Of a stretch of 59,036 nucleotides of DNA, positions 30,557 through 51,621 are shown piece by piece. Source of the DNA: a virus; IMG/VR virus record IMGVR_UViG_3300047548_001221, positions 1 through 59,036 of that record. One strand, written 5' to 3'. The notes under the pieces were generated by a model that worked only from the letters and a program-made list of their open reading frames with translations, made no database searches and was not told where the DNA came from. The translations under genes were made by a program, and so were the position numbers. Numbering within the stretch: the first letter of the stretch is position 1; each line of letters begins with the position of its first letter.

Positions 30557-33500
30557 ATGGCAACAAGAATTAGAACACTAAATTTTCTTCCTGAAATATT
30601 TCAGACACCTACAAACGCACAATTTTTAGCGGCTACTTTAGATCAAGTGGTAGCACAACCAGAAACTAAAAAAATTCAAGGATATATAGGAAGTAAATTT
30701 GGTTATGGTATAAATGCAAAAGACTATTATGTAACTGAACCTACTAAGGTAAGAAAAGATTACCAGTTAGATCCTGGTATTGTATTCACAAAAAAGAATG
30801 AAGCAGTAGCGCAAGATTTTATTAGTTATCCTGGTATATTAGATGCGTTAAAATTGGAAGGTGGATTAACGAAAAACAACGATCGGTTATTTAACAGTGA
30901 ATTTTACTCATGGGATAGCTTTACCAATCTAGACAAAATAATTAACTTTAATCAATACTATTGGATACCAAATGGTCCTGATAGTGTTATAGTTTCAAGT
31001 GAAACAGTTTTTTCTAGCAATGATTATATAGTTAAAAGTTTATCCAATGGATATAGCATTGTTCCATTGACTGCTAGTGAAGGTGCCAGCAGCACCAACC
31101 CAACAATTATTTTACTTCGTGGAGGCACGTATACATTTGAAGTAAATCAAGATTCACAATTTTGGATTCAAGGCGAACCCGGGGTAACTGGTTATAGTGC
31201 AACTCAACCAAATTTACAAACAAGAGATGTGTACGGAGTTAACAACAATGGCGCTAGTGTTGGCATTGTTACTTTTAATGTTCCTCCAAAAGACGCACAA
31301 GACGAATACAATTTCCCAGGAAATAATTTAGTTGATGTTGTATCTACTCTACCTTTCTCTGAGATAAATGGCAAACCATTAAGTGAATTAGGTAATATAG
31401 ACGGTATATCATCGTTAGAAAATCTAACAGTTATGTTTTATAACACAGGTGATGTAAACGAAATTGGGTACATATCTAACTTTTTTGATTCTACGGCATA
31501 CGATGTTAATAACGGATTAGTTGGCCCACAAACAGTAACTGTTACATCAACATCTGGTACTACGAATCTAGTTACTTGCGCTAACACTAATAATTTAACC
31601 GTAGGAGGTACAGTAACCTTCACTGGTTCTCCCTTCGGCGGGCTTTCTGCGTATTCTCCTACACTACCTAGTACTATATACTACATCACATCCATAGTTA
31701 ATGGTACTCAATTTACGGTGTCTACACAGCAACCTGATATTGCTCTTGCCACTCAACTAGTAGCAGGAAAAATATACATCATCACAAGTCTAGGAACTAC
31801 CGATTTTACTATATATGGCGCACCCACTAACGTTGTTGGAACTATATTTACAGCAACAAGTTCTGGTATAGGTACAGGCACAGCGAGAGAGTTAACAACT
31901 GGACTAAATTTTGAAATCGGAGAAACATACACCATCACGTCATTGGGAACTACAGATTTTACCCTAATGGGTGCAGCTAGCAATACAGTTGGATTAACAT
32001 TCATAGCAACCGGTAGCGGAGTAGTTACTGCAGGATCTTTCGTGCCGGGATTGAATTATGTTATTACATCACTGGGAACTACAGATTGGAATGCTGTAGC
32101 AGGAACAACAGGTCTTTCCTATATAGTAGGTGATATCATAACAGCAGCCACATCAGGTAGTGGTACCGGTCAGGCAAATCAAATGACAACTGGTTCAGGT
32201 ACTGGTACTGCGTATGTTGGAGCAACGAATGCAGTTTTAAGTTCTTCCAGCGGGTCAATGATATTAAATTACAATTTAGGATTATATGAAGAAGGATATT
32301 ATACAAACGTTAGTGATTATTTTTATCGTATAACCTATATAGGAGATCCTTCTAATCCTGTAATTAGATTAGTAGAAGATTCTCAAATACCTACTAACGA
32401 AAAAATTACAGCAGTATATGGTACACAATGGATATCTAGAAATTTTTATAAAAATGACGCCGGAACCATTTTATTAATACCATACATTACTGCTCCATTA
32501 GATACTTTATATTACCAAGACGGTACGTCACCTAATAAAGTCGGTACAATTAGAATTATCGAAAGTAACATTCTCAACACATTAGATGTAGAGCGTGATA
32601 TTTTAGGAAAAACGCAATTTACTGCTACTAATGGGGTCGTGTTTACAAATGGGTTAAAAGTAAAGTTTCAAGGAGATGTAGTACCTAGAAGTTATCTAAC
32701 AGGAGAGTATTATGTAGAAGGTGTAGGTACTAGTATAGAATTGCTCCCAGTAGAAAATTTTGTTTCTCCTGAAGGATTTACTTCTGGTAAATACGATCCA
32801 TGGGATACTATTCCATGGGACACTGCAGCATGGGAAGGTGATTCCTACATACCTGTTACCCCTGATTACATTACTATATCTAGAAATTCAATTGATAAAA
32901 ATGCTTGGTCACGAAGCAATAGGTGGTTTCATATTGATGTAATAAATGCAACTGCAACTTACAACAATAACCCTAATTTAGTAACACTATATACTCTACC
33001 CGAGTATAAAGCAAAACGTCCTATTATTGAATTTTATCCTAATCTAAAATTATTCAATTTAGGTATCGAAGGAAAAAATCCAGTTGATTTTATCGATCAA
33101 AGAACTACGGATGCATTTGGTTTAGTAGCAGGACAACAGAATTATTATCCAGACGTTGAAGTATACACCAAATATGCTGGAACTATTAGTGCTACTAATT
33201 ATTCTCCTACTCGATCACTAACATCATATAGTTTGTCTACAAACGAATTTACAGTAAATTCTACTGCAGGTTTTAGAGTGAATGATCTTGTTGTCTTTAA
33301 CGATACTCCACCTGCCTTAGGAATTACAACTGGTTCAGTTTATTATATTACTGAAATATTAACAGGAACAACCTTTAAAATATCATCTACTAGAGGCGGA
33401 GCTAGTGTAGGTTTTACTATAGATTTGCCAGATCCACCTACTTATACTGGTCCATGGTCAATGACATGGACTCCTCAAAGTACTACAATCACTATTTCTG

Positions 33501-36500
33501 CTGATGATGTCATCGGGGCGTTTACAGTAGGACAATACATTACTGATTCTACTAATCAACTTCCTAAAAATTCTCAAATTGTGGCTATTTCAGGTACAAC
33601 AATTATTACACTGGAAGTAGAATGGGAAGTTGGATCTTCGGTATACATACCGATTACAAGTAATGCATCATTAATAGCTACGGACACAACCAATGACAAT
33701 TATGCACTGTTCGAAGGATCAACTATTATTTTTGCAGCAGATAATGATTTAAATGTAAGAAATAAGATTTACGTTTCACGTTTTTCTGACATTGCAGGGT
33801 CATCTATTCCCGTAATTACATTAACAGAAATTCAAGATGGTAATGTACTACCGGAACAGCAAACAGTTGCACTCAGAGGTTACTTTAATCAAGGAAAAGA
33901 ATTTTGGTTCAATGGAGATAATTGGATTGATGGTCAACAAAAAACTGACGTAAATCAACCACCACTCTTTGATATTTTTGACAGCAATGGCATAAGCTTT
34001 GGTAATTCTGATATATACCAAGGTACATCCTTCATTGGTTGCAAACTGTTTGGATATGGAATAGGAACAGGACCTGATGACTCTATTTTGGGATTTCCGA
34101 TAAGATATAGCTCAGTAGAAAATTTAGGAGATATAAGTTTTGATGTATCATTAAATTTGGATACGTTTGATTATGTTAGTGGAACTTCTCCCATAACACA
34201 AAAAGTTAACACAGGTTATGTATACCAATATAACACACCTAACCAACCTGTACGTCAGATAGGTTGGCAGACAGCAGTAGCTCCTAGCGTCCAATATCAA
34301 TTGTTTGAATTTGAGTATGATGTTTTAAAACCTACATTAGAATTCGTATGCGACATTAATACTATAAATTCTACTGATATTGCATGGCCAGTTATTAAGG
34401 TTGCAATTAACAATGTAATATTGTCAGATTCAGAATATACAGTTTCTTCAACAAATGTTTCTACTACTATAACGTTGAATAGCAGTCCTGTCACTAATAC
34501 GATAATTCAAATTGCTTTATTAAGCAATCAAACAAGTCAACAGGCTTTCTATTCAATACCAATTAATTTAAATAATAATCCATTAAATGCAGACATCGTT
34601 GTTGCTAATGTGGGTGACATTCGCGGGCAATACCAAAGTATGTTTTACAACAATCCAAATACAACTGGAGAAGTATTTGGATCAAACAACTTTAGAGATT
34701 TAGGTAACATGGTTCCCTGGGGGGACAAGATTATTCAGAATAGTGCAAGTTTAGTTCTTCCTGGCACATTGTTGCGCAAGACAGAACATAACCTATTTAA
34801 TGCATTGATGTTCAATAGCAAAGAATATGTAAAATTCAAGAATTTATTAGTTTACACAGTGCAGAATGCTGATTATCAGCAAAGATATGACGCAGCTACA
34901 ATGTTGGATGACGCACTTGACTATATAACGGCAACTAAAACTGATAGCCAGCCGTTCTTTTGGTCAGATATGATACCGAACAAAGCTGCTTATATTGTTA
35001 ATACATATTCATTTGCTAATAGTTTAGATGTTAGTATCTATCCGTTATCGAAAACATATGACTTTACAAAAGCAAATTACTATGGTGTGCTTGTTTACCT
35101 AACTCGCGCTGTCAATAATATTTTAGTTACACGCCAACTAATTAAAAATACAGATTACACCATAAGCACAGATTCTCCTTCATTAACGATCACCTTAGAT
35201 TTATTGCCTGGTGACGTAATTACTATAAAAGAATATAACCAAACATATGGAAGCTATGTTCCTAACACACCTACAAAATTAGGTCTGTATCCAGCACATA
35301 TACCACAAGTCATTCTAGATAGTAACTACTCTACCCCTACATATTTTATTAAGGGTCACGATGGATCATATACAAAATTATACGGTGAATATGATCCTAA
35401 TACAGGTATTTTAGTTGACTTTAGAGATCAGGTACTATTAGAATTTGAGTTGAGAATTTACAACAACTTAAAATTAAGTGCGACAATTCCTATTCAAGAG
35501 TACGAAATAGTTCCTGGATTCTTTAGGGAAACAGACTACACATATGAAGAATGGTTGTACATGTATAGTACAGCATTCTTGAATTGGGTAGGTCAAAACC
35601 GTTTAGATTTCAAGACACAAATCTATAACGCTGCTGATCCATATACGTATAATTATTCTCAGAGTGGTAACGCATTAAACAAGAAACCAATATCACAAGG
35701 ATATTGGAGAGGTATATACCAATACTTCTATGATACAACCAATCCTAATACAGCACCGTGGGAAATGCTAGGCTTTACAGAAATGCCAAGCTGGTGGACA
35801 TCACGTTATGGTCCTGCCCCATATACAAGTGACAACTTAGTGTTGTGGGAAGATTTAGCAAATGGTATCAATTGGAATAACGGCAATCCTATAGTTATTG
35901 AACAGGCCGTGCGCCCAGGTCTATTAGATGTTATTCCAGTAGACAGCGCAGGAAACTTATTAGAACCATTGAATTGTATTGTAGGAAACTACAATCAAAA
36001 TCTATTCAGACGTGATTGGAAAGTAGGAGATGATGCGCCGGTAGAATTCAGCTACAGACGCAGCAGCACATATCCATTCGATCTAGTAAGATTGATGGCA
36101 TTGATGAAGCCAGCGCAATTCTTTAACTTAGCAGTAGATTTAGACAATTACAAGTATAATGAAGAATTCAATCAATATCTAGTAAACGATAGAAGCCATC
36201 TTGTTATTAAAGATGTAGAAATTTACGGGGATGGAACAGCTAAAACCAGTTATTTAAACTGGATAGTAGATTACGAAAAACAAATAGGAATAGCTGCTAC
36301 TGAAAACATAAAAACTCTCTTTGACAATTTAGATGTTCGTTTAATTTACAGACTAGCAGGATTCAGTGACAAAATATTATTGCAGTTCTTTGTAGAAAAA
36401 GGAACCCCAAACTCTAATAATGCAAGTTTATTGATTCCTGACGAAAGCTATAGTGTATTGTTATATGACAATCAACCATTCAATAGGGTAATGTATTCAA

Positions 36501-39500
36501 GTATTATCGTTCAGCAAGGTAATGCCGGCGAATATATTGTATATGGAAATTCACAAAGTTCTGCATACTTTACAACATTAAAACCTAAATTTAGTGGGAA
36601 CTGGAAGACCTTCGAGGTAGAAGACGCAACTGTTCGTATTACAACCGAGCATTTTGAACAAGAACAAATTATTCCATATGGAACAAAATTTTATTCTATA
36701 CAAGAAGTAGCTCAATTTGTTTCTGATTACGGTGCATATTTAGAATTTTTGGGTATGCAATTTACAGAACAAGAAAATGAACTTACTATTAATTGGGATC
36801 AGATGATAGCTGAGTTCTTGTATTGGTCTCAGACAGGATGGGAAGCAGGTAGTATAGTAACGTTGAACCCTGCAGCTAAGATTCTTGTCATCAATAAAGA
36901 TAGCAATATTGTTCAGCCATTGACACTTCAACAATCTAACTTTGTGTTGAATCAGAATTTATATCCTGTACAACTCACAGATTTGGCTATAGTACGCGAT
37001 GATACATTGTTCTCCGTAACAGCACTAAACGACGGAGACACAATATCATATGGACAGTTTAATTTAAGTAATTTTGAACACGGAGTTGTGTTTGATAATG
37101 TAACTGTATTCGGTGATATTATCTATAACCTTATTACCGGATTACGTCAAACACGTATTGCAGTACGGGGTACAAAATCAGCAGCATGGAACGGCACAGT
37201 TAACGCAGCTGGATTCATTTACAATCAAAACAATATTAAAGAATGGAACAAATTTACCAAATATACAAAGGGTGAAATTGTAATATATAAAAATAAGTAT
37301 TGGGTAGCTACTAAGGTTATACAGGCTAGTGAAATTTTCAAGGAAGAAGATTGGAAACGCACAGACTACAATGAAATACAAAAAGGATTGTTAGCTAACC
37401 CAAGTACTAGAAGTTATGAAAGTACACTGTATTATGATACAAACCAAACTAACTTAGAAAAAGATGCGGATCAATTGTCATTTAGTTTAATAGGATACAG
37501 ACCTAGAGATTATTTGGCATTGGCAGATTTAACAGATATAACTCAAATCAATGTATACAAAAACTTGATAAAAAATAAAGGAACAAGAAATTCTACAAAT
37601 GCCTTTAAGGGAGCCAATTTACCTCAAGGTGGTATAGATTATGACGTATACGAAAATTGGGCTATTAAGTCTAGTCAATTCGGTGGTGTTTTAAACAATA
37701 ATTTTATAGAGGTTAAGTTAAATGAAAAATATTTGACCGGTAATCCATCAATAGTAGGGTTAACCAATGGAGTATATAATTTAGGAGTACAACAAGAAAT
37801 TCCGTTGTACTCAATATTCAATTATGAACGACCAGTTACAGATGTAAACATACTATCTACTATATCACCTGATGAACCATCAGTAATATATCCTACTGCA
37901 GGATATGTGAATTTTAATGACGTAAAATTGACATCATTCTTTTATTCACAGTTACCAATTGGAGTAAACAAAAATGGCATAGTAATTCCTATACAAGAAT
38001 TTTATGTTAGAGATTACGCATGGGTAGCAAATTATAAAGAAAGATGGGAAGTATTTACACCATCTTCTATTGGAAGAGTAGTCAATGCAAAGAACAATTT
38101 AAATGAAACTGTAACTTTAACATTTGACGTTCCGCACAATTTGCGACAATATGATCCTTTTGCAATTGTTAACTTTGAAGAAAATATAGATGGTTATTAT
38201 ATAGCAACAATTGTTATAGATCCATACCGAGTTATGGTTAATAAAGTTCTTGATCCAAGTATCAAAACTATCACTGGTCAGGGCGTTGGATTAAGATTAA
38301 AAACACAAAGAGTTGCTACTCCGGCGGATATTGCTTCTCTGCCTTTGTTAAACACAGAATTTACAAAAAATACAGTTTGGGTAGATACCAATACAGATGG
38401 ATCTTGGGGAGTTTATCGTAAAGGTATTAATTATCAATTACAAGATCAATTAACAAAAACTTCATCTCAATCTTTAGGTAGTGCAGTAGCTATAGGAGAG
38501 AATTTAGGTTACCTAATAGGCGATGCAGATGATGGTAAGGTTTATAGATATACTTTTAATGATTTAACACAAACTTATCAATTAGTACAAACACTAACAG
38601 GTGGCGCTAGTTTTGGTAGCACTATTGCATATGCCGATGATTTATATGCTATAGCTGAAACAACTGGGACAACCAGAAACATTAAGTTATACCAGCTACA
38701 AAATACAACTGAATCTGATGACTTGGTATTATACCAAACTTTAAGTGTACCCGGCGTATCAACCACAAACTGGGGACAGTCGATATCTATATCCGGTGAC
38801 AAATATTGGATTTATGTTTCTGATATTGTTCAAAACACAGTTTACGTGTATCGCCGTTCACATGTTACTACCCCAGCGGGTAATTTTACAATAGGACAAA
38901 CATACACGATAGCTGAATTGGGTGACACTGATTTCAAACTTGTAGGTGCAACGACCAATGTAGTTGGAATATCGTTCATAGCTACAGGAGTTGGTAGTGG
39001 TACTGGTGTTGCAATCAAATCAACATATGTTGAGGCTGCAATAATCGATGCTGATGCATTGTCATTAACAACTGCAGGAGACAATTTCGGAACTTCAATA
39101 AGTACTGACTATTCAGGTGATCGTGTGGTTATAGGGGCACCTAATCAAAATTATGGAACAATCGACAACTGGGGTTATGCTTATATCTTTAACAGATTAG
39201 TTCAAAATATAGAAATACAAAACAATGTAACTCCTACTACATTACAATTAGCTTGGACTCCTACAACTGTTCAAAAAACCGTATCTGCTACAAACGGTGC
39301 ACCAAATTATACGATCACATTAAACGATGTGGTTGGATTGAATGTCAATGATCCTGTAGTGTTTACTGCTACAGGAAGTGGCCTCAGTGGTACAAATATT
39401 GTTTCTGATCAAATTTATTATGTCCACAGCATTCCTTCGGGAACTGAAATAAAAATTAAAGAAACTAGGTTCGCAACATCACCATATGCTGTTACTACCA

Positions 39501-42500
39501 ATGCATCCGTCAGTGCCACATTGCATGTTCAAACAGAAAGCTTATTAGTTTACAGGAATGGTACTATCGTTGATGACAACAATTATGCCGTTATAAACGA
39601 TAAATTATTATACACGGGAGCTTTAAGTGCAGGAGACATTGTAACAGTAAGTAGTAATGAAATAATTTATACCCAGACATTAACTACTGAAGAATCACCT
39701 CAAATTGGTTCTCAATTTGGTATTAGTTTAGATGCAAATACCTACGCTAGTGAAATATTAATCGGTGCACCATTTCAACTTAATTCACAAATTCAAGAAG
39801 GTGCAGTATATAGATTTACTGATGGCGGCGCAAAATACGGTACAATTATAGGTACGGGAGAATGCAATGTCACTACTGCAAGAAAAATTTTGATTAATGG
39901 ATATTTAGTTTATTTGGCAGCAGGAAATGCAGAGGACAGCGCAAATATTATCAAAGCATCAAACATTACAAATGTTACTGCAACCGCAATTAACAACAAA
40001 TTGGTTATATCTTTGATAAACATTGATCTAGCACCAAATAACGAAAAGCTATCATTGAGTGTTGATGATTATGTAACTTTGCAAGAATTAGGTATTAGCA
40101 TATTCACAAAAACACAAGAAATTTTGTGCCCGCATACAGAAGGACCTACACAATTTGGAACTGTTGTTAAATTTAATCAATACGATAGTTTTATAGCAAG
40201 TGCGCCAGCTGGTACACGTTATAGTGCAACCACTTTTGATTTTATTGATGATGAAAATCAAGATAATGACACTATTTTTGATAACAATGCAACTCAGTGG
40301 ATAGACCAATCTCCTAATTTTGGTGCAGTATACATGTTTGATTTTATACCGCAATATCAGTCAAACATTTTAAATCCAGGTAAATTCATATACGCTCAAA
40401 GTGTGAATTCCCCAAATATTGTTTATAGTCCATTTAATACTTACGATCAAGATACGGATGTGACAGAAAACAATCAACCTCGTTATGGAACTGCATTAGA
40501 TTTCAATGGTTACTCATTGATTGTGGGAACTCCGGGAGACACAGGTTCTACTTCAGGAACTACATATTCTGGTTCTATTACAACATACAATAATATCTTA
40601 AATGTAAAAGATTGGACATTATTTAGATATTCTGCTCCGGTAGTAGATGTGAATAAACTATTCAACATACAACTGTTTAGTGCAGAAACTAATAATACAT
40701 TGATTAATATGGACTATATAGATCCATGGCAAGGTAAAATATTAGGTGCAGCTAGAGAAAATATAGATGTCATTTCTAATGACGATCCAGCAACATACAA
40801 TAATACGGGAACCGCACCAGGCGGGATAGTTTGGGGCGCAGCACAAATAGGAAAAATATGGTTTAATACGTCAAATATTAGATATGTAAATTATCATCAA
40901 AACAATGATGTTGTGTACAATAGTCAATACTGGGGAACATTGTTTCCTGGTAGTGATGTTGCAATATATACTTGGATAGCAAGTAACGTATTACCCGCAG
41001 ATTATCAAGGTCCCGGAACGCCGTATCAAATAGATTCGTATTCAATTCAATATGTAATTAACTCAGCCGGAGCATTAACTCCTGTATATTACTACTGGGT
41101 AAGAGATACTAATATTATTTTTGCTGACAATGGAAAAACTCTAGCAGATTCTATAATTGCATCATACATTGAGAATCCCAAAAATTCAGGTGTAAGTTAT
41201 TTTGCTCCATTACTACCGAACGTTTATGGATTATATAACAGTGGAGAATACATTAATGCAACTGATAGTGTGTTGCATTTAGGGTTCGCAACTGGTAAAA
41301 ATGATGATCCATCTCATCAGCAATTTAATTTAATACGTGATGGGTATGCAAGTGATTTCTTACCAGGTGTTCCATTATTACCTGAACAACTACCTGAAAA
41401 TCTTTATGATAGAATGTTAGACAGTTTATGTGGTGTAGATGAAACAGGTCAAGTTGTTCCTAATCCATATTTGCCACGCGCAGTTCAAACTGGTGTTCTT
41501 GCAAGACCTAGACAAAGTTTCTTCTTTAACCGTTTCACCGCGTTACAAAATTATCTACAATATGCTAACACGGTGTTAGCACAATATCCTATCAGTGAAA
41601 TTAGACAATCATTGTTCTTGAACTCATCTGGTCCTTTTTACGAAACTGCTGATTACTGGCAATATGTAAATTGGTGGGCTCCTGGCTACGATAATAACAC
41701 AAAGTCTGCAATGCAGGTTTCAATCTACGCTGATTTGTCAACTCTTACTGTTCCGGTAGGAACTATTGTAACTGTATTGACTAATAATGAAGGTAAGTCT
41801 GAAACATACGTTTATGAAGCAATCGGTAATTGGAACCGCATAGGATTAGAAAATGGTACAATAGAATTTAAATCTTCATTGTGGGATTACGCTAGCGTGA
41901 GATTAGGATACGGTGACAATTTCTTTGACACAGACATATATGATCAGTATCCTAGCGAAGAAACAAGAAAAATTATACGTGCGCTGAACGAAGAAATTTA
42001 TGTTCAAGATTTATTAATTCATCGCAATAAGAGTTTGATATTGTTGTTTGAATATATTCAAAGTGAAACAAGTGAAAATCAAAATTATTTGCCGTGGTTA
42101 AATAAAACATCGTTGATAGATGTATCTCATACCATACGTGAATTGAGACCGATAGAAGTATTTCAAACTGACAATCAAGAATTTTTGGCAGGATACTTGA
42201 ATGAAGTAAAACCATATCACGTTGTAATTAAAGAGTTTGTATTTAAATACACCGGTGAAGAGTTATATACTGGTAACATTACAGATTTTGATTTGCCGGC
42301 AAAATATAATAAATCGTTGGAGCAATTTGTCAGCCCGCAGTTGGTGTATAGCAATCCAAGCGGTTCAACTGAATTTTTACCAAATAATACGATTTGGCAA
42401 GAACCTGAATATTCTCAGTGGTTTGAAAATAAAGGTGTAAGTATCACAGGTGAAAAAGATTTCCAGTTAACAACACTGGCATCATATATTTCATTGAATA

Positions 42501-45500
42501 CTGCATCTTTTGCAGTTGATAATGCCCAGGGATTCCCTACTAACGGCGTAATAACGATCGGTACTGAAAAAATAGGTTATTCTTCTGTAGATCGTGCTAC
42601 TAATATTATTTCCGGATTAACGCGCGGAGTCGACGGAACCAATGTGTCTACACATATACCAGGCGCATTAATTTATACCGATTTACCACCTGTATTACTA
42701 TTGAATGGTGGTAGAGGATATACAGAACCTCCTAAGGTTGTTGCATACTTGGATACAACAATATATCCAGCTCCTACAAGAACTGCGGTATTAGAGGCAG
42801 TAATGAGTTTGGACAGTGTATTAAGAATTGATGTAATAGATCCTGGCCAAGGATATGCTGCGTTACCTACAATTAAAATAGATCCGGCAATTACAATTAA
42901 TTTTTCTAGTGAAGACGTAAATCCTAACATTGATACAATTAGATTGTATGCTCCATTATTAGAAACAGGGGATTTGGTTCAATATAAAGTCGGAGCAAAC
43001 AGCACTGCAATAGGTGGATTAGAAAATAATCAATGGTATTATGTTAATGTATTAGAAACGGTACCGACAGTTGTTGTGGGTTTATATACAAATTATTTAA
43101 ATTCATTGGTTGACCATGACAGAATTGCAATCTATAATGCAGGAACAGGTGTAAATCATTCACTTAATTTAGGTGCAAGAGCAAGTGCAATTTCAACTGC
43201 GTATCCAATTAGAGAAAATGATATAACATTAAGATTTGACAGAACTACTTACAATTCTGATATTATAGAATGGATTGCAGGAAGATATTACGGTGCTTTC
43301 TATGCAGGTAGCTATTCTAATAGTGAATCAGTAGCAAGTTCTTCAATAACTCTACAAAGTACACAACCTCCTATTGCAGACATATTGGCAAGTGCACAAG
43401 GTGTGGCATTTGAAATTACCGATTTAAGGAATGAAAGAGTAATTACTTATAGTTCCTTTGTTCGTAACGTACAAAGCACTGAAAATTTTGATAATTCAAT
43501 AAGATTAATACTGCAAGATGATGGATCAGGCAATCCAAATGCTTCAGGAGGTACATTAGGTTTCTACGTAGGAATGCCTATAAAATTTAAAGGAGCTACC
43601 GGAACAAGTAATTTAATTAACGATACCGTTTACTATGTAAACAGTATTATCAGTTTGACTGATTTTACTATTTCTGCAAATTCTTCAGGCAGTCCTATAC
43701 TTACACTTAATGATTTCAACCCCACAACAGTAGGAGGATTAGAATGTTATGTTGGTGAAGTAACTGATACTGCAGTAATTACTGTTAATTATCCAGGTAT
43801 TAGAAATATAACAGCCACCACTGCAATAACAAACAAAGTAACGATACCGTTTAACATTACTGGAACCGGTGGAACAGAAGGATTCTATATTGACCTTCCT
43901 ATTTTCTTTACAGGGACAAACAACACTTTACCTCAGAACGGTGTATTCGGTGGAATTGTAGAAAATCAAGTTTATTACGTCACGACAGTAGTTGACGAAC
44001 AAACGTTTACAATGTCTACTACTACCAATCCACTAGTATTTACAGTTTTATCTACTGATGCAGGTACTGATGCAGTATCTATCGACGGCGATACTTCTAA
44101 ATTGTATATCAATGAGCCTATAATCTTCAATACAATGGTAATTTCAGGCTCTAAAGCAACATCGTTTGGAAACATCGTATCAGGTAAAACTTATTACGTT
44201 TCTGCTATTACTTCACCTAGCACTTTCCAAATATCTGAATCTATAAACGGTCCGGTATTTGCACTATCTACTGTATCGGCTGCTAATAACACCTCATCCT
44301 TAGTAACGAGCCAAAAAGATACTGTACCTTTGGATACAGCTACAGGTTCTACTATGGTTGTAAACATCAGTTTACCAGTAAGTCCTGGACAGGTTAATGG
44401 CCAACTATTCACAATGTATGAAACTTCAGAACAATATCCTAATTTAGTAGGTAATGATGGAAGTTTAATTACTAGAGGAGTTGCATCTTTAATTGGACAA
44501 AGAATTATTGACGGTAATCCAGTAGATGTTAACAGAATAGTTTTGACTAATTTTAATGCTGGAACTAATGTAGCATTATTATTAACCAATCTATATGTTA
44601 ATATGCCAATGGAAATATCAGAAGATTTATTTGATAGCAGTTCATATTTGACTCTAGGCACAACGTATTACATAGTAGATATGGATATAATTGAGGTTGA
44701 AGTTACAAACACATCTCAAGTTACAACTGGAGTAACAGTTACTGCAGGCAATTTTGTTACAGGTAGTACATACATAATTGTAACTTTAGGAACTACAGAT
44801 TTTACCTTAATCGGTGCAACATCAAATACTATTGGATTAAAATTTACTGCAACAGGTCCAGGAGTAGGTACAGGAACTGCCAATGTTGTAAGAAATCAGC
44901 TAACATGTGATACTACAGAATCATTATTTGCAGATATGCCAATTAGTTTTACTGGTGCAGGCATAGGCGGAGTGAATATTGACGTTGAGTACTATGTCAA
45001 AGAAGTAGTAGATGATCACCATTTCACGATAACAAACACGCCTGGTGGTTTAGAAATTGTAGTTCAAACTGCTAATGGATTGATGACAGGCATTGGGTTA
45101 CCTTATATTAAGTTGGCTACAACTATAGGTGGAACAGATGTTAATCCAGGAGACACAGAACAGGCAGCATCAATCAATGTAGCAAGCCCTGCGGTTGTAA
45201 CTGTAACCGAAGCTCCACAAAACGGAAATACCATTATATTTAGAAATGGTAATGTTCCTAACGGCGTAGCATTGAATACTACATATTATGTACGTAACGC
45301 ATCCTCAACAACATTTAATATATCTTTAACTCCCGCCGGCGCATTAGTTAATTCATCTGGTTCTTCTGGATCTACAACGATGATTAATACTACTAGCGCA
45401 ACAATGGATCAAACACCATCAGGTATTCCTGAATTTGATGTAAGTTACATTTTAGGAGGATATAGAGCTATTATCAGTTCTCCAGGCTCAGGATATGCGA

Positions 45501-48500
45501 TTGACAATAAAATTACTATTTCAGGTACTGATATGGGAGGGGTATCTCCAGAAAATGATTTGACCTTGACAGTTAATTCTATAGATAGTTTAGGTGAAAT
45601 TACTAGTGTAATTTGTGCAGGTACTGTACCCGGACAAAACAATCAATACTACTTGAAAGTTATTTCTCCTACGGAGTTTGAAATATATCAAAATGCGTTA
45701 ATGACAGTTCCGGTTAGTGGATTGGGATTACCTTATAAAGGTGTAACGCAGTCTATAGTTAATAATTTAACTTCAGGAACAGAAACGTTAACATTAGATG
45801 ATGCTTCAGGATTTGCTGTTAACGATGCGGTTGTCTTCACCGGAAACCTAACACCTACAGTAGGCTCTAATCCTACAATAACTGCAGGAAAAACATATTA
45901 CATAACAAGTATTGTAGGCAATGATATCACTATTTCCGATGAGCCCGGTGGCACTAATGTTGATATTTTAACTACTGTGGCAGCCGATTTCACAATAGCA
46001 AAATCTGGATCATTTGTATTGTTACCAGAACCGTTCATATTCAATCAGAGTATTGTGAAATATAATAATCGTGTTTATGTCTGTATCATTTCTAACAATG
46101 ATGATGAATTTGTTTTTGGTAAATGGGAATTATTAACAAGTGGAGATAGAAGATTAAATGCTATGGATCGTGTTATAGGGTATTATGATCCTACAAGTAA
46201 CATGCCTGGTGTTGATTTAAGTCAATTGTTCGAAGGAATAACATATCCAAATAGCATTTATTTAGGAAATCCATTCCAACCTGATGAACAATTCCCAATT
46301 GATACTATACTACAAGATCAACCATTTTATCCAACTGATGTTGATATAAAAGCGGTAGCGTGGGATGGTACAAAATATTTTGCCCCAGCTGACACGCCGG
46401 AATATTCAGCAGTCATCACAAGCGAAAATACCAATGAATGGGAAATTTCAAAATTAGCAAATACTCCATTGGGCGTTACTGATATAATTTATGCAGGTGG
46501 TTTTTACATCATAACGACTAACAATAATGCTACTCCTATATTCAGAAGTAATGACGGGGTAACATGGACCACAAACAGTACTGGTCTAAATGTTGCATCA
46601 ATTTCTTTAAATTCTGTGTCATATCTCAATTCTCTTTGGGTAGCGGTAGGAGAAAATATTGTTTCTAGCGACGATACTTATATTTGGAGAGAAAGATTTG
46701 AATTTTCTAATCCATCATTAGAAAATATATTATACGGTGTCTTAGGTATATCTCTAACAAATTATACAGGATTTATCGCTGTAGGTAAAGGACAACAATT
46801 TGACTATTCTACAGGAATAACTTTACAAGAAGATATCAACTTGATTGTAACCAGTACTGATGGTATAATATGGAATCAATTAACACCGGTCTCTGCAAAA
46901 GGCTTATACGGAATAGCATATAATGCTAACAATATTGTTGTCGTAGGTGAAGACGGAATTATTTATACTTCAACTAACGGTAATAATTGGTTGGGAGTAA
47001 ATGAAGTAAAAATTATAAGTGCTAACAGCGTTGCAAATGAATTGAACGTAACCAACACTAGTGGTTTTACAGTAGGAGACATTGTTTATTTCAGTGAATC
47101 ATTTAACGTTATTGTAGCCGGTACTCCATATTATGTTGTTAACATAATTTCTTCAACTCAGCTTCAAGTAAGCTTAACATCAGGAGGCCTTCCAATTACG
47201 TTAAATTCTAATGATCCACTTGTAAACACCTATATGCATTTGGCATATACTTCGTCTTTACGTGACGTTGCATATTCAAATGGAGTTTACATAGCAGTAG
47301 GAGATAATGGATTAATTAAAACATCTACTACTGGATCTGGATTGTGGAATACTCAAATTTCAGGTACAACAAAAAATCTCAGAGGCATAACATATAACAG
47401 TGATGATGGCATTTGGATAACAGTAGGAGACGATAATACAATATTAACAAGTGTTGATAATGGAATCACTTGGATCGCTTCGTCAATTTTTGCTCCGCAA
47501 TCAACTATTTACGATGTTCAAGGTGCAGAATTCACATTTGGTTATGGACCAGAAGAATTAGTTCCTGGAGTAGTTACAGATAACCTTACTATGATTGTTG
47601 CTACTAGACCAGGTACAAACTGGAATGAAACTATATATCAACACGTAGGGTATAATGTTGCCTCATTGGAATTATCACCACAATCAGGAACACAAATAAC
47701 CTATAGTTTTGATGTGGCCAATGTCAATAATATTCAAACACCAGCCAAACTATCAGTGTTTGTAATAAACGGAACAACTGGACTATGCACAACCATTTAT
47801 GAAGGATTAGATTACAGTATAGATTGGATCACATTGACAGTAACATTGAATACTCCGTTGGCATTTACACCTGTCGCCGACAGATTAAGAATAGACATAT
47901 ACGAAGTAGGAAATGGTAGTCAATTAGTGAAAGCAAGCACTAAAACCGATCCTATCAGAATAAATGAAACAACTGGATGGAATGAAATTTATGTCAATTG
48001 TAATTATTCAGGGGAAATATACCAAGGTTCAGGAGTAATTAGACCAGGAACAAGCCCAATAGATGCAGTGTGTGTTGAAACTGATGCTGTTTCTAATTCT
48101 ATTTTGTGTGAAGATGTATCTGGTTTTGTTTTAAATAATGCAATTACGTTCCAGGGAACTACATTTGGTGGTATACAAGAAGATACAGTTTACTATGTAA
48201 AAACAATTAGTTATGTAACCAATAGGATTACTATTTCTACCACGTTCAATGGTGGCACAGGAACAGCAGGACCTACATTATCTCTAACTGATGGTTCTGG
48301 GTACATGACAGCTATTATATCTACAGGTACTGGGTTAGTATGGACAGACCCTATAATTTATCATAATGGAAACAAGTTGTTATTAGGGACTACCGGCACC
48401 GTCACTAGAACAAAAGCAGCACCATTTAATACAATAACATGTAGCACTACATCATCATTGGCTATAGGTGAACGTGTGGTATTTAGTGATACTATGTTTG

Positions 48501-50800
48501 GTACTGTAGTTCAGCCACAGATTACGTATTACGTTGCTTCGATATATGATTTTAATGAATTTAGAATTTCAGAAAACAGTTCTGCAACTGTAGCAGGAAG
48601 CTTTGTAATAGGAAAAGAGTATGTTATTATAGATCCGGGCACAACAAACTTTACGTTGATTGGTGCTTCAAGTAATGTTGCAGGAACCATATTCACTGCT
48701 ACTGGAAACGGAACAGGTAATGGCACCGCATGGGAAATCCTACAATTATCTGATGCAACCGGTGGTGCAGAGTTTATTTCTAATGATTATACATTTGGAA
48801 TTGCCGATAATGGAATTTCTGCATCGTTAATTTTCGCAACAGGTGCATATGATGCAACAGTGGATTATATAACATATACTTTATTCGGTGAAACTGTACC
48901 TATCCAATACGGATACACAATACCGGAAATGCAATTATTTACCGGCGACGGATCAACTACAACGTTTAGTTTAGTTAATTTTGTAGGTGATGATAATGCA
49001 AACAATGCAATTGTTGAAGTTAATGGATTAAGGCAAGATATTAGTGATTACACTATCAATACAATTACTAATGAAATTATTTTTGGAACAGCTCCATTGA
49101 ACGGAGACACTATTGCTGTTACGACTTACAATCAAACCGACAGGCAATATTTCAATACTCAATATAATATTACAGGTTCTACTGTAGCTAAAATAACTAA
49201 CATTAACAATAACATTGTTAATCCTATAGTAGTATCAATAACTGCAACAACATCAGGAACCAATGTTATCACATGTATTGATACTTCATTATTTGTTGCA
49301 GGTCAAACCATTGTGTTCAAAGGAATAAGCTTTGGTGGATTAGCAGTAGATGGTACTGTTTATTTTGTTAGAAACATTTTAAGTTCTACAACGTTTACGA
49401 TCGAGGATGAAAATGGAAACATCATTGTATTAAGTAATGGTTCAGGATCAATGTTTGCTGAAATAGGTGGTCAACCTTCTGTCAGAATTATAACAGTTAA
49501 TCCACACAATTTCAGTTCTCCGGTTAATGGCAATCAATTAATAAGAATTGACGGGGTGTTTGGATCAACACAATTGAATAACAAAACTTATTACGTGCAC
49601 GTAATAGACAGCTATACAGTAGATTTATATGAACAACCATATGATTCTGCGTTAGCGGCTATAAATTATCCTGTAACAAATGTAAGCACTTATACCGGCG
49701 GAGGATATATTTTCAACAATGATCTGTATACTATTGTAACTGTAAACGTGACATCTACAACAACAAGTCCTACATTAGGAAACAGATTAATTGTAGCAGA
49801 TACAAGCATGTTGATTGAAGGTACACCGATAATTTTCACAGGAACTTCATTAGGTGGAATAAGCTTGAACACAACTTATTATATTAAAGAAGTAGCTACC
49901 CCAACAGCATTTACTATTTCTGCCACTCGCGGTGGAGATGAAGTAATTCTAGCCAATGATTCAGGTTCTATGAATGCTACCCAATGGGAGCAAACCAATG
50001 TAGATAGACTTTGGGTAACGGTTAACGGTTATCGTGTTCCATCTTCATCACTGGTGTTAAATGAAAACAACCAATTAAGTATTTTAACAGAAATCAATCC
50101 TGCTGATTCAGTAATTATTACTAGTATGATGCCTAGTGCAACACCCAACGAAGAAGTATATTTATTAAACGTGGAACAAAATAATGCAGGAGTTGTATTC
50201 CGAGCAAATACGCAAACTAGAACTTGGTTAACACAACCATTAAGTAATACTAGTTCTACGATTTATGTTCAGGATGTGACAAGGTTGACAGATGTGATTA
50301 CACAAAATGTAACTGCACCTACTCCGGTAAATAACATTTATAACATCGGGTTGACATCAGATAAGAACATCATTTCTAGTGTAACAGTTGTTAATAATAC
50401 AACAGGACAAACAATATCTAGTTCTAATTTCAATGTAGCTGTTATTAGTTTGGCTCCAGTTTTACAAATCACAGATGGATCATATATAAATCCAGGTGAC
50501 TCTCTAACTATTATAGTATTAGAGGGCAACTTAATTTATGTTAACGGAGAGCAAATTAAATTTACTTCGGTTGATTTAGTCAACAACACATTAACAGGAT
50601 TACAGCGGGGAACTAATGGTACAGGTGAACAACAGTTTATTCCTAAATATGCTGAAGTTTACGGATTGCTATCTAATAACCAAATGAGTGATCCAAATTA
50701 TTCTAAAACATGGAATTCTAATGTATATTCAAATGACGGAGATCCATTGCAAATAAGTGTAACTGATTCGGCAATATTCTTGCGAACCGATATAAGTTGA
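30557..50800 (+). CDS. giant 6,747-residue baseplate/fibre structural protein (gp7 position)
   Basis: One uninterrupted frame of 20.2 kb. The N-terminus (MATRIRTLNFLPEIFQTPTN, then QLDPGIVFTKKNEAVAQDF, FNQYYWIPNGP) and blocks near residues 1800 (NLFRRDWKVGDDAPVEFSYR) and 3880 (FLAGYLNEVKPYHVVIKEF) recall large virion proteins that follow gp6 in T4-like phages, where T4 has gp7 (1,032 residues). Around this scaffold are six copies of a ~45-residue GTTDFT-type module, about 15 copies of a ~65-residue beta module with a YYV/I-x-x-I and FTIS core, FG-GAP-like repeats (residues ~2630-3340) and BNR/Ycf48-like repeats (~5310-5655). The C-terminus repeats a NGEQIKFTSVD ... GLQRGTNGT module also seen near residue 3990. 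It should be a wedge component carrying large outward appendages. No signal peptide or membrane segment seen. Confidence 0.85.
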   Translation: MATRIRTLNFLPEIFQTPTNAQFLAATLDQVVAQPETKKIQGYIGSKFGYGINAKDYYVTEPTKVRKDYQLDPGIVFTKKNEAVAQDFISYPGILDALKLEGGLTKNNDRLFNSEFYSWDSFTNLDKIINFNQYYWIPNGPDSVIVSSETVFSSNDYIVKSLSNGYSIVPLTASEGASSTNPTIILLRGGTYTFEVNQDSQFWIQGEPGVTGYSATQPNLQTRDVYGVNNNGASVGIVTFNVPPKDAQDEYNFPGNNLVDVVSTLPFSEINGKPLSELGNIDGISSLENLTVMFYNTGDVNEIGYISNFFDSTAYDVNNGLVGPQTVTVTSTSGTTNLVTCANTNNLTVGGTVTFTGSPFGGLSAYSPTLPSTIYYITSIVNGTQFTVSTQQPDIALATQLVAGKIYIITSLGTTDFTIYGAPTNVVGTIFTATSSGIGTGTARELTTGLNFEIGETYTITSLGTTDFTLMGAASNTVGLTFIATGSGVVTAGSFVPGLNYVITSLGTTDWNAVAGTTGLSYIVGDIITAATSGSGTGQANQMTTGSGTGTAYVGATNAVLSSSSGSMILNYNLGLYEEGYYTNVSDYFYRITYIGDPSNPVIRLVEDSQIPTNEKITAVYGTQWISRNFYKNDAGTILLIPYITAPLDTLYYQDGTSPNKVGTIRIIESNILNTLDVERDILGKTQFTATNGVVFTNGLKVKFQGDVVPRSYLTGEYYVEGVGTSIELLPVENFVSPEGFTSGKYDPWDTIPWDTAAWEGDSYIPVTPDYITISRNSIDKNAWSRSNRWFHIDVINATATYNNNPNLVTLYTLPEYKAKRPIIEFYPNLKLFNLGIEGKNPVDFIDQRTTDAFGLVAGQQNYYPDVEVYTKYAGTISATNYSPTRSLTSYSLSTNEFTVNSTAGFRVNDLVVFNDTPPALGITTGSVYYITEILTGTTFKISSTRGGASVGFTIDLPDPPTYTGPWSMTWTPQSTTITISADDVIGAFTVGQYITDSTNQLPKNSQIVAISGTTIITLEVEWEVGSSVYIPITSNASLIATDTTNDNYALFEGSTIIFAADNDLNVRNKIYVSRFSDIAGSSIPVITLTEIQDGNVLPEQQTVALRGYFNQGKEFWFNGDNWIDGQQKTDVNQPPLFDIFDSNGISFGNSDIYQGTSFIGCKLFGYGIGTGPDDSILGFPIRYSSVENLGDISFDVSLNLDTFDYVSGTSPITQKVNTGYVYQYNTPNQPVRQIGWQTAVAPSVQYQLFEFEYDVLKPTLEFVCDINTINSTDIAWPVIKVAINNVILSDSEYTVSSTNVSTTITLNSSPVTNTIIQIALLSNQTSQQAFYSIPINLNNNPLNADIVVANVGDIRGQYQSMFYNNPNTTGEVFGSNNFRDLGNMVPWGDKIIQNSASLVLPGTLLRKTEHNLFNALMFNSKEYVKFKNLLVYTVQNADYQQRYDAATMLDDALDYITATKTDSQPFFWSDMIPNKAAYIVNTYSFANSLDVSIYPLSKTYDFTKANYYGVLVYLTRAVNNILVTRQLIKNTDYTISTDSPSLTITLDLLPGDVITIKEYNQTYGSYVPNTPTKLGLYPAHIPQVILDSNYSTPTYFIKGHDGSYTKLYGEYDPNTGILVDFRDQVLLEFELRIYNNLKLSATIPIQEYEIVPGFFRETDYTYEEWLYMYSTAFLNWVGQNRLDFKTQIYNAADPYTYNYSQSGNALNKKPISQGYWRGIYQYFYDTTNPNTAPWEMLGFTEMPSWWTSRYGPAPYTSDNLVLWEDLANGINWNNGNPIVIEQAVRPGLLDVIPVDSAGNLLEPLNCIVGNYNQNLFRRDWKVGDDAPVEFSYRRSSTYPFDLVRLMALMKPAQFFNLAVDLDNYKYNEEFNQYLVNDRSHLVIKDVEIYGDGTAKTSYLNWIVDYEKQIGIAATENIKTLFDNLDVRLIYRLAGFSDKILLQFFVEKGTPNSNNASLLIPDESYSVLLYDNQPFNRVMYSSIIVQQGNAGEYIVYGNSQSSAYFTTLKPKFSGNWKTFEVEDATVRITTEHFEQEQIIPYGTKFYSIQEVAQFVSDYGAYLEFLGMQFTEQENELTINWDQMIAEFLYWSQTGWEAGSIVTLNPAAKILVINKDSNIVQPLTLQQSNFVLNQNLYPVQLTDLAIVRDDTLFSVTALNDGDTISYGQFNLSNFEHGVVFDNVTVFGDIIYNLITGLRQTRIAVRGTKSAAWNGTVNAAGFIYNQNNIKEWNKFTKYTKGEIVIYKNKYWVATKVIQASEIFKEEDWKRTDYNEIQKGLLANPSTRSYESTLYYDTNQTNLEKDADQLSFSLIGYRPRDYLALADLTDITQINVYKNLIKNKGTRNSTNAFKGANLPQGGIDYDVYENWAIKSSQFGGVLNNNFIEVKLNEKYLTGNPSIVGLTNGVYNLGVQQEIPLYSIFNYERPVTDVNILSTISPDEPSVIYPTAGYVNFNDVKLTSFFYSQLPIGVNKNGIVIPIQEFYVRDYAWVANYKERWEVFTPSSIGRVVNAKNNLNETVTLTFDVPHNLRQYDPFAIVNFEENIDGYYIATIVIDPYRVMVNKVLDPSIKTITGQGVGLRLKTQRVATPADIASLPLLNTEFTKNTVWVDTNTDGSWGVYRKGINYQLQDQLTKTSSQSLGSAVAIGENLGYLIGDADDGKVYRYTFNDLTQTYQLVQTLTGGASFGSTIAYADDLYAIAETTGTTRNIKLYQLQNTTESDDLVLYQTLSVPGVSTTNWGQSISISGDKYWIYVSDIVQNTVYVYRRSHVTTPAGNFTIGQTYTIAELGDTDFKLVGATTNVVGISFIATGVGSGTGVAIKSTYVEAAIIDADALSLTTAGDNFGTSISTDYSGDRVVIGAPNQNYGTIDNWGYAYIFNRLVQNIEIQNNVTPTTLQLAWTPTTVQKTVSATNGAPNYTITLNDVVGLNVNDPVVFTATGSGLSGTNIVSDQIYYVHSIPSGTEIKIKETRFATSPYAVTTNASVSATLHVQTESLLVYRNGTIVDDNNYAVINDKLLYTGALSAGDIVTVSSNEIIYTQTLTTEESPQIGSQFGISLDANTYASEILIGAPFQLNSQIQEGAVYRFTDGGAKYGTIIGTGECNVTTARKILINGYLVYLAAGNAEDSANIIKASNITNVTATAINNKLVISLINIDLAPNNEKLSLSVDDYVTLQELGISIFTKTQEILCPHTEGPTQFGTVVKFNQYDSFIASAPAGTRYSATTFDFIDDENQDNDTIFDNNATQWIDQSPNFGAVYMFDFIPQYQSNILNPGKFIYAQSVNSPNIVYSPFNTYDQDTDVTENNQPRYGTALDFNGYSLIVGTPGDTGSTSGTTYSGSITTYNNILNVKDWTLFRYSAPVVDVNKLFNIQLFSAETNNTLINMDYIDPWQGKILGAARENIDVISNDDPATYNNTGTAPGGIVWGAAQIGKIWFNTSNIRYVNYHQNNDVVYNSQYWGTLFPGSDVAIYTWIASNVLPADYQGPGTPYQIDSYSIQYVINSAGALTPVYYYWVRDTNIIFADNGKTLADSIIASYIENPKNSGVSYFAPLLPNVYGLYNSGEYINATDSVLHLGFATGKNDDPSHQQFNLIRDGYASDFLPGVPLLPEQLPENLYDRMLDSLCGVDETGQVVPNPYLPRAVQTGVLARPRQSFFFNRFTALQNYLQYANTVLAQYPISEIRQSLFLNSSGPFYETADYWQYVNWWAPGYDNNTKSAMQVSIYADLSTLTVPVGTIVTVLTNNEGKSETYVYEAIGNWNRIGLENGTIEFKSSLWDYASVRLGYGDNFFDTDIYDQYPSEETRKIIRALNEEIYVQDLLIHRNKSLILLFEYIQSETSENQNYLPWLNKTSLIDVSHTIRELRPIEVFQTDNQEFLAGYLNEVKPYHVVIKEFVFKYTGEELYTGNITDFDLPAKYNKSLEQFVSPQLVYSNPSGSTEFLPNNTIWQEPEYSQWFENKGVSITGEKDFQLTTLASYISLNTASFAVDNAQGFPTNGVITIGTEKIGYSSVDRATNIISGLTRGVDGTNVSTHIPGALIYTDLPPVLLLNGGRGYTEPPKVVAYLDTTIYPAPTRTAVLEAVMSLDSVLRIDVIDPGQGYAALPTIKIDPAITINFSSEDVNPNIDTIRLYAPLLETGDLVQYKVGANSTAIGGLENNQWYYVNVLETVPTVVVGLYTNYLNSLVDHDRIAIYNAGTGVNHSLNLGARASAISTAYPIRENDITLRFDRTTYNSDIIEWIAGRYYGAFYAGSYSNSESVASSSITLQSTQPPIADILASAQGVAFEITDLRNERVITYSSFVRNVQSTENFDNSIRLILQDDGSGNPNASGGTLGFYVGMPIKFKGATGTSNLINDTVYYVNSIISLTDFTISANSSGSPILTLNDFNPTTVGGLECYVGEVTDTAVITVNYPGIRNITATTAITNKVTIPFNITGTGGTEGFYIDLPIFFTGTNNTLPQNGVFGGIVENQVYYVTTVVDEQTFTMSTTTNPLVFTVLSTDAGTDAVSIDGDTSKLYINEPIIFNTMVISGSKATSFGNIVSGKTYYVSAITSPSTFQISESINGPVFALSTVSAANNTSSLVTSQKDTVPLDTATGSTMVVNISLPVSPGQVNGQLFTMYETSEQYPNLVGNDGSLITRGVASLIGQRIIDGNPVDVNRIVLTNFNAGTNVALLLTNLYVNMPMEISEDLFDSSSYLTLGTTYYIVDMDIIEVEVTNTSQVTTGVTVTAGNFVTGSTYIIVTLGTTDFTLIGATSNTIGLKFTATGPGVGTGTANVVRNQLTCDTTESLFADMPISFTGAGIGGVNIDVEYYVKEVVDDHHFTITNTPGGLEIVVQTANGLMTGIGLPYIKLATTIGGTDVNPGDTEQAASINVASPAVVTVTEAPQNGNTIIFRNGNVPNGVALNTTYYVRNASSTTFNISLTPAGALVNSSGSSGSTTMINTTSATMDQTPSGIPEFDVSYILGGYRAIISSPGSGYAIDNKITISGTDMGGVSPENDLTLTVNSIDSLGEITSVICAGTVPGQNNQYYLKVISPTEFEIYQNALMTVPVSGLGLPYKGVTQSIVNNLTSGTETLTLDDASGFAVNDAVVFTGNLTPTVGSNPTITAGKTYYITSIVGNDITISDEPGGTNVDILTTVAADFTIAKSGSFVLLPEPFIFNQSIVKYNNRVYVCIISNNDDEFVFGKWELLTSGDRRLNAMDRVIGYYDPTSNMPGVDLSQLFEGITYPNSIYLGNPFQPDEQFPIDTILQDQPFYPTDVDIKAVAWDGTKYFAPADTPEYSAVITSENTNEWEISKLANTPLGVTDIIYAGGFYIITTNNNATPIFRSNDGVTWTTNSTGLNVASISLNSVSYLNSLWVAVGENIVSSDDTYIWRERFEFSNPSLENILYGVLGISLTNYTGFIAVGKGQQFDYSTGITLQEDINLIVTSTDGIIWNQLTPVSAKGLYGIAYNANNIVVVGEDGIIYTSTNGNNWLGVNEVKIISANSVANELNVTNTSGFTVGDIVYFSESFNVIVAGTPYYVVNIISSTQLQVSLTSGGLPITLNSNDPLVNTYMHLAYTSSLRDVAYSNGVYIAVGDNGLIKTSTTGSGLWNTQISGTTKNLRGITYNSDDGIWITVGDDNTILTSVDNGITWIASSIFAPQSTIYDVQGAEFTFGYGPEELVPGVVTDNLTMIVATRPGTNWNETIYQHVGYNVASLELSPQSGTQITYSFDVANVNNIQTPAKLSVFVINGTTGLCTTIYEGLDYSIDWITLTVTLNTPLAFTPVADRLRIDIYEVGNGSQLVKASTKTDPIRINETTGWNEIYVNCNYSGEIYQGSGVIRPGTSPIDAVCVETDAVSNSILCEDVSGFVLNNAITFQGTTFGGIQEDTVYYVKTISYVTNRITISTTFNGGTGTAGPTLSLTDGSGYMTAIISTGTGLVWTDPIIYHNGNKLLLGTTGTVTRTKAAPFNTITCSTTSSLAIGERVVFSDTMFGTVVQPQITYYVASIYDFNEFRISENSSATVAGSFVIGKEYVIIDPGTTNFTLIGASSNVAGTIFTATGNGTGNGTAWEILQLSDATGGAEFISNDYTFGIADNGISASLIFATGAYDATVDYITYTLFGETVPIQYGYTIPEMQLFTGDGSTTTFSLVNFVGDDNANNAIVEVNGLRQDISDYTINTITNEIIFGTAPLNGDTIAVTTYNQTDRQYFNTQYNITGSTVAKITNINNNIVNPIVVSITATTSGTNVITCIDTSLFVAGQTIVFKGISFGGLAVDGTVYFVRNILSSTTFTIEDENGNIIVLSNGSGSMFAEIGGQPSVRIITVNPHNFSSPVNGNQLIRIDGVFGSTQLNNKTYYVHVIDSYTVDLYEQPYDSALAAINYPVTNVSTYTGGGYIFNNDLYTIVTVNVTSTTTSPTLGNRLIVADTSMLIEGTPIIFTGTSLGGISLNTTYYIKEVATPTAFTISATRGGDEVILANDSGSMNATQWEQTNVDRLWVTVNGYRVPSSSLVLNENNQLSILTEINPADSVIITSMMPSATPNEEVYLLNVEQNNAGVVFRANTQTRTWLTQPLSNTSSTIYVQDVTRLTDVITQNVTAPTPVNNIYNIGLTSDKNIISSVTVVNNTTGQTISSSNFNVAVISLAPVLQITDGSYINPGDSLTIIVLEGNLIYVNGEQIKFTSVDLVNNTLTGLQRGTNGTGEQQFIPKYAEVYGLLSNNQMSDPNYSKTWNSNVYSNDGDPLQISVTDSAIFLRTDIS
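31759..32210 (+). repeat. three tandem GTTDF modules inside the giant protein
   Basis: Residues ~401-552 hold three consecutive ~45-residue units with the pattern G-x-x-Y-x-I-T-S-L-G-T-T-D-F/W, a G-A-x-x-N-x-V-G core and a G-x-G-T-G-x-A end. The third is more divergent (TTDWNAVAG). Single copies recur at 38875-39020, 44743-44886 and 48592-48735. Confidence 0.85.
38460..40580 (+). other. FG-GAP-like beta-propeller region inside the giant protein
   Basis: Residues ~2634-3341 contain repeated units beginning with FG/WG-x-S/T-x-x-x and ending GAxYxF: SLGSAVAIGENLGYLIGDAD, NWGQSISISGDKYWIYVSD, NFGTSISTDYSGDRVVIGAP, QFGISLDANTYASEILIGAP, QFGTVVKFNQYDSFIASAP, RYGTALDFNGYSLIVGTPG. The spacing suits a seven-blade integrin-like propeller interrupted by other modules. 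Confidence 0.65.
46340..47520 (+). other. BNR/Ycf48-like beta-propeller region inside the giant protein
   Basis: Residues ~5262-5655 hold repeats of the form S-x-D-G-x-x-W (SNDGVTWTTNS, STDGIIWNQL, STNGNNWLGV, SVDNGITWIAS) alternating with VAVGENI, VVVGEDGIIYTS, IAVGDNGLIKTS, ITVGDDNTILTS. This is the Asp-box/Ycf48-like propeller pattern, often used for binding or for sugar recognition. Confidence 0.75.
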
Positions 50801-51597: not shown

Positions 51598-51621
51598 AAA
51601 TAATAGTGGAGTGATTTGAAA

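Follow-up and report, generated by a model that had tools for sequence, protein, structure and literature searches.

The stretch of viral DNA that we analysed, 59,036 nucleotides in length and called the window below, carries a baseplate operon in which the genes for a hub protein and two wedge proteins are followed by one very large gene and, behind it, by two small ones:

22980..26663, plus strand: gp5-like hub protein of 1,227 aa (profile matches)
26672..27121, plus strand: gp25-like wedge protein (GPW_gp25)
27175..30546, plus strand: gp6-like baseplate wedge protein (phrog_10646, E 2.6e-262; phrog_219, E 2.8e-22)
30557..50800, plus strand: giant gene
50969..51589, plus strand: 206-aa partner gene (phrog_11259, profile match), which adjoins the giant gene in most relatives
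51616..52839, plus strand: 407-aa Peptidase_G2 protein of the intramolecular-chaperone-type autoproteolytic kind (domain match)

The ATG of the giant gene starts 10 bases past the end of the gp6-like gene, and the order gp5/hub, gp25, gp6 and giant agrees with the gp7 position assigned to it in the first-pass annotation. The partner gene of about 200 aa is kept beside the giant, being nearby rather than adjacent in RaK2 and GAP32, and the 407-aa protein is probably a fibre or spike. Since the window also encodes gp23-, gp20- and prohead-protease-type head genes, SbcC/D and a late sigma factor, it derives from a T4-type myovirus. In its capsid protein it shows 66-68% identity to Vibrio phage 2.275, Phosso and PA5oct, whose genomes measure 285-470 kb, and relatives of the giant gene sit on viral contigs of up to 367 kb; the source is therefore most probably a jumbo phage, of which the window is a 59-kb fragment.

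Elsewhere in the window, a 1,367-aa protein with a GH19 chitinase/endolysin domain and weak tape-measure-like profile matches is encoded between the portal and baseplate genes (8414-12517, minus strand), and a collagen-repeat protein of at least 500 aa, which runs off the window and adjoins the major capsid gene (3-1502, minus strand), is a candidate capsid or tail fibre. A radical SAM protein downstream of the tail genes (57053-58435, plus strand) gave a weak prokaryotic-viperin profile match (PADLOC E 8e-6, best at residues 134-226), and next to the SbcC gene (14163-15373, minus strand) a PDDEXK endonuclease and an HNH endonuclease of intron type suggest homing elements.

The giant gene consists of a single open frame of 6,747 codons that begins with ATG and has one stop at its end and none inside, and it encodes a protein of 6,747 residues and about 737 kDa. 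Earlier reading of the sequence had described a single 20.2-kb gene that fills about a third of the window and whose product is more than six times the size of T4 gp7; by computation the gene takes up 20.2 of 59.0 kb (34%) and its product is 6.5 times as long as the 1,032-aa gp7. Length and repeats are the sole points in favour of an assembly or annotation artefact that joins several genes, an explanation whose chances we regard as negligible. Scanning IMG/VR with one conserved block yielded 78 loci, mostly with the frame open up to the edge of the DNA retrieved, which include near-duplicates, so that independent lineages are fewer than loci, yet at least 12 of them differ widely. For 16 contigs the 3' ends were added by joining overlapping pieces contig by contig, and all 16 encode the whole protein without a break, at 5,756-6,752 aa and with 44-78% identity to the window protein; on 12 additional contigs, open frames of 5,728-6,539 aa span the conserved C-terminus. 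Early stops in two loci (L051 and L079) look like breaks of the frame confined to one contig each. Relatives that are shorter, at 4.1-5.3 kaa, and have both ends present also occur, and a second IMG/VR scan with the alignment as query confirmed at least 594 related stretches of all lengths.

Selection on the gene was estimated from two relatives. The protein of L009 is 89% identical to that of the window in pairwise alignment over 3,360 aa, without indels of 8 aa or longer, and dN/dS over these residues in common is about 0.05; comparison with G023 gave a dN/dS of at most about 0.11 in every tenth of the gene, with dS near or at saturation. The giant gene is under purifying selection in all its tenths. 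Together with the 16 full-length intact relatives on other metagenome contigs and the roughly 12 more open frames of comparable length, this selection rules out an assembly join or gene fusion, so that the assembly error considered in the first-pass annotation is excluded for practical purposes. We conclude that T4-type jumbo phages of one environmental clade encode, as a rule and not as a freak, an intact virion protein of about 6-6.7 kaa.

The giant matched phrog_10938, annotated 'virion structural protein', over its core (E 2.1e-195 and 2.2e-59), and by its sequence it belongs to this known family of Rak2-like/PA5oct-like jumbo phages, whose members measure 3.3-4.6 kaa. Isolate homologues are PA5oct gp355 (3,857 aa), those of Atu_ph07 (4,449 aa), Phosso (4,555 aa), SCTP-2 (3,807 aa), Vibrio 2.275 (3,771 aa), RaK2 (3,326 aa) and GAP32 (3,341 aa), and CBB gp236. 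In PA5oct, Atu_ph07, Phosso, RaK2, GAP32, CBB and Vibrio 2.275 the homologue lies directly downstream of gp25-gp6, and in SCTP-2 it occupies the same place but behind a 3.1-kaa gene. The isolate proteins share with the giant the core blocks (about 20-40% identity per block), the place after gp25-gp6 and the nearby partner gene of about 200 aa; they differ in that the giant is 1.5-2 times longer. Residues to about 3950 and the extreme C-terminus can be aligned to them, whereas the remainder, residues of about 3950-6747, is largely unalignable in a reliable manner; membership in phrog_10938 does not require full-length collinearity, and the isolate members themselves vary in length. Related frames of up to 5.3 kaa with 26-33% identity (L197-L205) were also found on contigs binned in Neomarinimicrobiota, Pelagibacter, Porticoccaceae and other bacterial MAGs, which are probably phage contigs co-binned with bacteria.

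Several family members have been detected in virions. PA5oct gp355 was found by ESI-MS/MS according to the note in its sequence record, CBB_236 is represented by 21 peptides in virion MS (PMC5259590), and phAPEC6 gp245, a protein of 382 kDa that adjoins the wedge protein gp244, by 17 virion peptides (PMC7247149); from its size and position, gp245 would be a homologue of the giant. The earlier designation as a virion protein is thus supported by the family, with MS detection confined to relatives of about half the length of the giant. A polyprotein or precursor, cut after translation into separate fibre and wedge proteins, has in its favour the rarity of single chains as large as 737 kDa and the Peptidase_G2 protein encoded two genes downstream. 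We consider this very improbable: Peptidase_G2-type domains act on their own chain, profile searches of the giant found no protease domain, and the virion MS of relatives lists one protein, though such MS does not test cleavage.

Conserved blocks that alternate with repeat modules, and two propeller-like regions, had been proposed for the protein from its sequence. Alignments of relatives and module profile searches bore out the alternation, and both propeller-like regions could be resolved by eye into arrays of seven repeats each. The features of the protein, all on the plus strand, are as follows:

30557..30976 (+), residues 1-140: core block 1, about 70-80% identical within the clade and alignable in all Rak2-like phages
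31547..31732 (+), residues 331-392: F module (profile search)
31748..32182 (+), residues 398-542: three T modules (profile search, alignments)
32354..34876 (+), residues 600-1440: core block 2, with one variable F module at 892-954 (alignments, orthologue model)
35234..37756 (+), residues 1560-2400: core block 3, best conserved, main phrog_10938 match
37577..37585 (+), residues 2341-2343: KGT motif (K in 163, G in 164 and T in 154 of 164 family sequences)
38468..40636 (+), residues 2638-3360: propeller-like region 1, seven FG-GAP-like repeats (by eye; weak FG-GAP_2)
40694..42406 (+), residues 3380-3950: core block 4, partly helical, motif NEVKPYH (alignment, structure model)
42461..42688 (+), residues 3969-4044: beta module with the fold of a phage JBD30 baseplate protein domain (Z 10.2, 2.0 Å, 75 residues)
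43451..43765 (+), residues 4299-4403: modelled F module, E1 (Uba1/Uba6) FCCH fold (Z about 8, 2.2-2.8 Å, 75-83 residues)
43523..45976 (+), residues 4323-5140: series of seven F modules, the modelled one among them, with a T module at 4730-4776 (profile search)
46340..47506 (+), residues 5262-5650: propeller-like region 2, seven BNR/Ycf48-like repeats (by eye)
48077..49972 (+): C-terminal F modules at residues 5841-5917, 5956-6011, 6230-6299 and 6408-6472, and a T module at 6013-6059 (profile search)

Five core stretches are common to the isolates (residues 1-140, 770-900, 1060-1440, 1560-2400 and 3380-3930), and residues 3950-6600 are for the most part confined to the environmental clade, where they are nonetheless conserved, mostly at 45-65% identity. 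Pfam and NCBIfam searches of the giant gave nothing above cut-off, and a PDB sequence search with the core profiles gave no significant relative. An FG-GAP_2 match to propeller-like sequence (E 0.0014) stayed below the Pfam cut-off. Propeller-like region 1, within residues 2400-3380, is common to the giant, Atu_ph07 and Phosso and mostly absent from RaK2. In both arrays, modules appear by eye to be inserted in loops between repeats: those of region 1 hold a T module (2774-2820) and an F module (2916-2982), and in region 2 an F module (5489-5553) stands between repeats 5 and 6.

Profile searches counted 15 F modules of about 70 aa and six T modules of about 48 aa in the giant, as against 0-1 F and no T modules in the phrog_10938 isolates, while across the 16 relatives the counts range from 8 to 18 for F and from 0 to 6 for T. 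Compared with G023 and G018, the triple-T block is a clean 162-aa insertion from residue 392, and L009 has no indel there; among 6,573 aligned residues G023 differs from the window protein by just two indels that reach 8 aa, and one is exactly this block. Residues 451-525 have no counterpart in the 16 aligned relatives, and the single T blocks at about 4726 and about 6009 are missing in other relatives. The T modules are therefore presence/absence modules, seen as clean insertions between close relatives. A search for the T module in isolate phages, run with the low-complexity filter on, gave two partial matches only, one of them in cyanophage S-TIM54, and no convincing F or T module was found in other ORFs of the 59-kb window. 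Module-like stretches were seen in other ORFs of the G001, G003 and G008 genomes (the contigs behind L035, L075 and L059), for example at 177831-181097 of G003 and 307478-308050 of G001, and they hint at a common module pool.

The fold of the modules was taken from an AlphaFold2 model of residues 3365-4560 (63 sequences, pLDDT 77). In this model the F module matched Uba6 with a Z of 8.4 and 2.2 Å over 79 residues; the FCCH fold thus stems from one modelled F module and would extend to the other 14 by sequence similarity among F modules. Likeness to the E1 FCCH domain is one of fold and implies no role in ubiquitin chemistry, and the same fold is matched by phage proteins such as the phi92 endosialidase (Z 6.3). 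A second model covered the first 1,200 residues of the compact orthologue L154 (m4b7e933ee226; pLDDT 79, pTM 0.74), which correspond to about residues 1-1805 of the window protein, and its fold matches were only Ig-like sandwiches of a common sort, from tail and neck proteins of phages (best Z 8.6). With both 1,200-aa models, Foldseek found no match in the PDB at E 0.001, and its strong matches in BFVD include the homologue in Atu_ph07 and unnamed phage proteins. A gp7 chain is absent among the fold matches listed for the two models, lists in which one or two domains account for most entries and which are not evidence of absence.

Proteins of comparable size are known at the same position in cyanophages. 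Gene 106 of Prochlorococcus phage P-RSM4 encodes a virion structural protein of 6,603 aa after gp25-gp6 (NC_015283 60366-80177; L115:367-20178), and other gp7-position giants are those of ACG-2014f (4,225 aa) and S-RIM44 (3,274 aa). They share with the window giant the position after gp25-gp6 and the size class, but the core is not detectably related: hhalign of the core blocks against the cyanophage proteins gave at most 0.3%, and BLAST with the giant gave only short peripheral repeat matches. The cyanophage giants instead carry a T4 gp7-like KG(T/I) anchor and repeats unlike those of the window giant. As P-RSM4 gene 106 has this anchor, giant size appears to extend to the gp7 proteins of cyanophages. 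According to Al-Shayeb 2020 (PMC7162821), huge phages encode proteins of up to 7,694 aa, some annotated as structural; the longest is of the same size class and possibly of the same kind as the window giant. With P-RSM4 at 6,603 aa in the same position, the size of the giant is less singular than had been thought. The analysis adds that lengths of about 6-6.7 kaa are typical across an entire environmental clade, that the protein has grown through identifiable modules set on a core already known, and that some of these modules are gained and lost among close relatives.

T4 gp7, a protein of 1,032 aa and 119 kDa present in six copies (PMC3004832), shares with the giant the gene position directly after gp6 and a presumed role, but it is 6.5 times smaller and its sequence similarity to the giant is undetectable. 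The phrog_964 (T4 gp7) profile did not match the giant at E 10; against a seven-member gp7 or gp7-anchor alignment, hhalign reached a probability of at most 1% with the core blocks and at most about 2% with sliding 300-aa windows of the giant. The P2 gpI and Mu gp48 families (PF09684, PF10076) likewise gave no match at E 10. A comparison of the first 1,000 or so residues with T4 gp7, suggested in the first-pass annotation, gave no match, and the orthologue model of this part only Ig-like sandwiches. The reading as a wedge initiator accordingly keeps its gp7 position and loses a demonstrable relation to T4 gp7; since profile tests fail to demonstrate that relation, 'wedge initiator' rests on synteny. 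The gp6 of the same operon, used as the hhalign control, scored 98% against cyanophage gp6 and 41% against T4 gp6. That gp7 similarity escaped every test while this gp6 is still recognisable (also by phrog_219, E 2.8e-22) would fit a replacement, in which Rak2-like phages gave up gp7 and took on an unrelated protein of fibre or spike type for the outer baseplate, with gp6 and other proteins filling the gp7 site. We hold such a replacement to be possible but doubtful, for conservation of the giant across all these phages and its tight linkage to gp25-gp6 suggest an integral part of the wedge.

The giant could also be a true gp7 homologue. Its core would then share an ancestral wedge protein with T4 gp7 and the giants of cyanophages, would attach to gp6 through a helix that closes with KG(T/I), in this protein the KGT at 2341, and would have diverged beyond detection elsewhere. 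Besides the gene position, an FY..KG(T/I)..S...LF anchor common to T4 gp7 and the giants of cyanophages (hhalign 83%) speaks for this, as does the KGT of the giant, which is near-invariant in the 164 family sequences. Hhalign set KGT over the KGI of gp7 with E 0.054 in the full and 0.015 in the distant set, but at a probability of only 1-3%, with the score equalled by 1-2 of 60 column shuffles; one shuffle gave an unexplained, anomalous score above 130. Moreover, the spacing from FY to KG differs, the residues past KGT are unlike the T4 hairpin, and the motif was selected by eye ahead of testing. KGT at 2341 may thus be the counterpart of the KG(I/T) anchor, a weak lead from sequence, and we judge true gp7 homology, too, possible but doubtful, though it is a refinement of the explanation that we prefer and not its opposite. 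The giant plausibly works like gp7; it can be filed in phrog_10938, while gp7 identity lacks support from the detection tests.

Because of the phrog_10938 match, the gp25-gp6 synteny, the MS detection of relatives and the dN/dS of about 0.05, we think it fairly probable that the giant is the wedge-position virion structural protein of a Rak2-like/PA5oct-like T4-type jumbo phage, with its core in the wedges and its beta modules outside. Its core blocks (within residues 1-2400 and 3380-3950) would fix it in the six wedges next to gp6 and gp25, where, as the synteny suggests, it would take the place of T4 gp7 and like it be present in six copies, one per wedge. The independently folding beta modules (propeller-like, FCCH-like and T) would project from the edge of the baseplate and may act as spacers, host-surface-contact or fibre-docking domains. 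The FCCH and JBD30 baseplate folds, the T insertions at 392, 4726 and 6009 and the variable F and T counts also speak for this explanation as a whole. Repeat modules of this kind are used in tail fibres and spikes, and by that analogy of module type the giant may have the adhesin and fibre functions that were attributed to it; propeller and FCCH-like modules would suit surface contact or the docking of fibres such as the downstream Peptidase_G2 protein. The protein would have grown by insertion of modules into loops, and the most likely description of it is a wedge scaffold with adhesin-type modules on its periphery.

More speculatively, and with low confidence, giant gp7-position proteins might have arisen at least twice, in Rak2-like jumbo phages and in cyanophages, on one gp6-binding anchor by serial insertion of beta modules, with T and F modules exchanged with other genes of the same phages; the baseplate itself, and not separate fibres, would then be the evolvable host-contact surface. 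If the giant is present in six copies in the baseplate, as T4 gp7 is, it would add about 4.4 MDa, and the clean presence or absence of T modules between close relatives makes it a tractable system for the growth of giant phage proteins.
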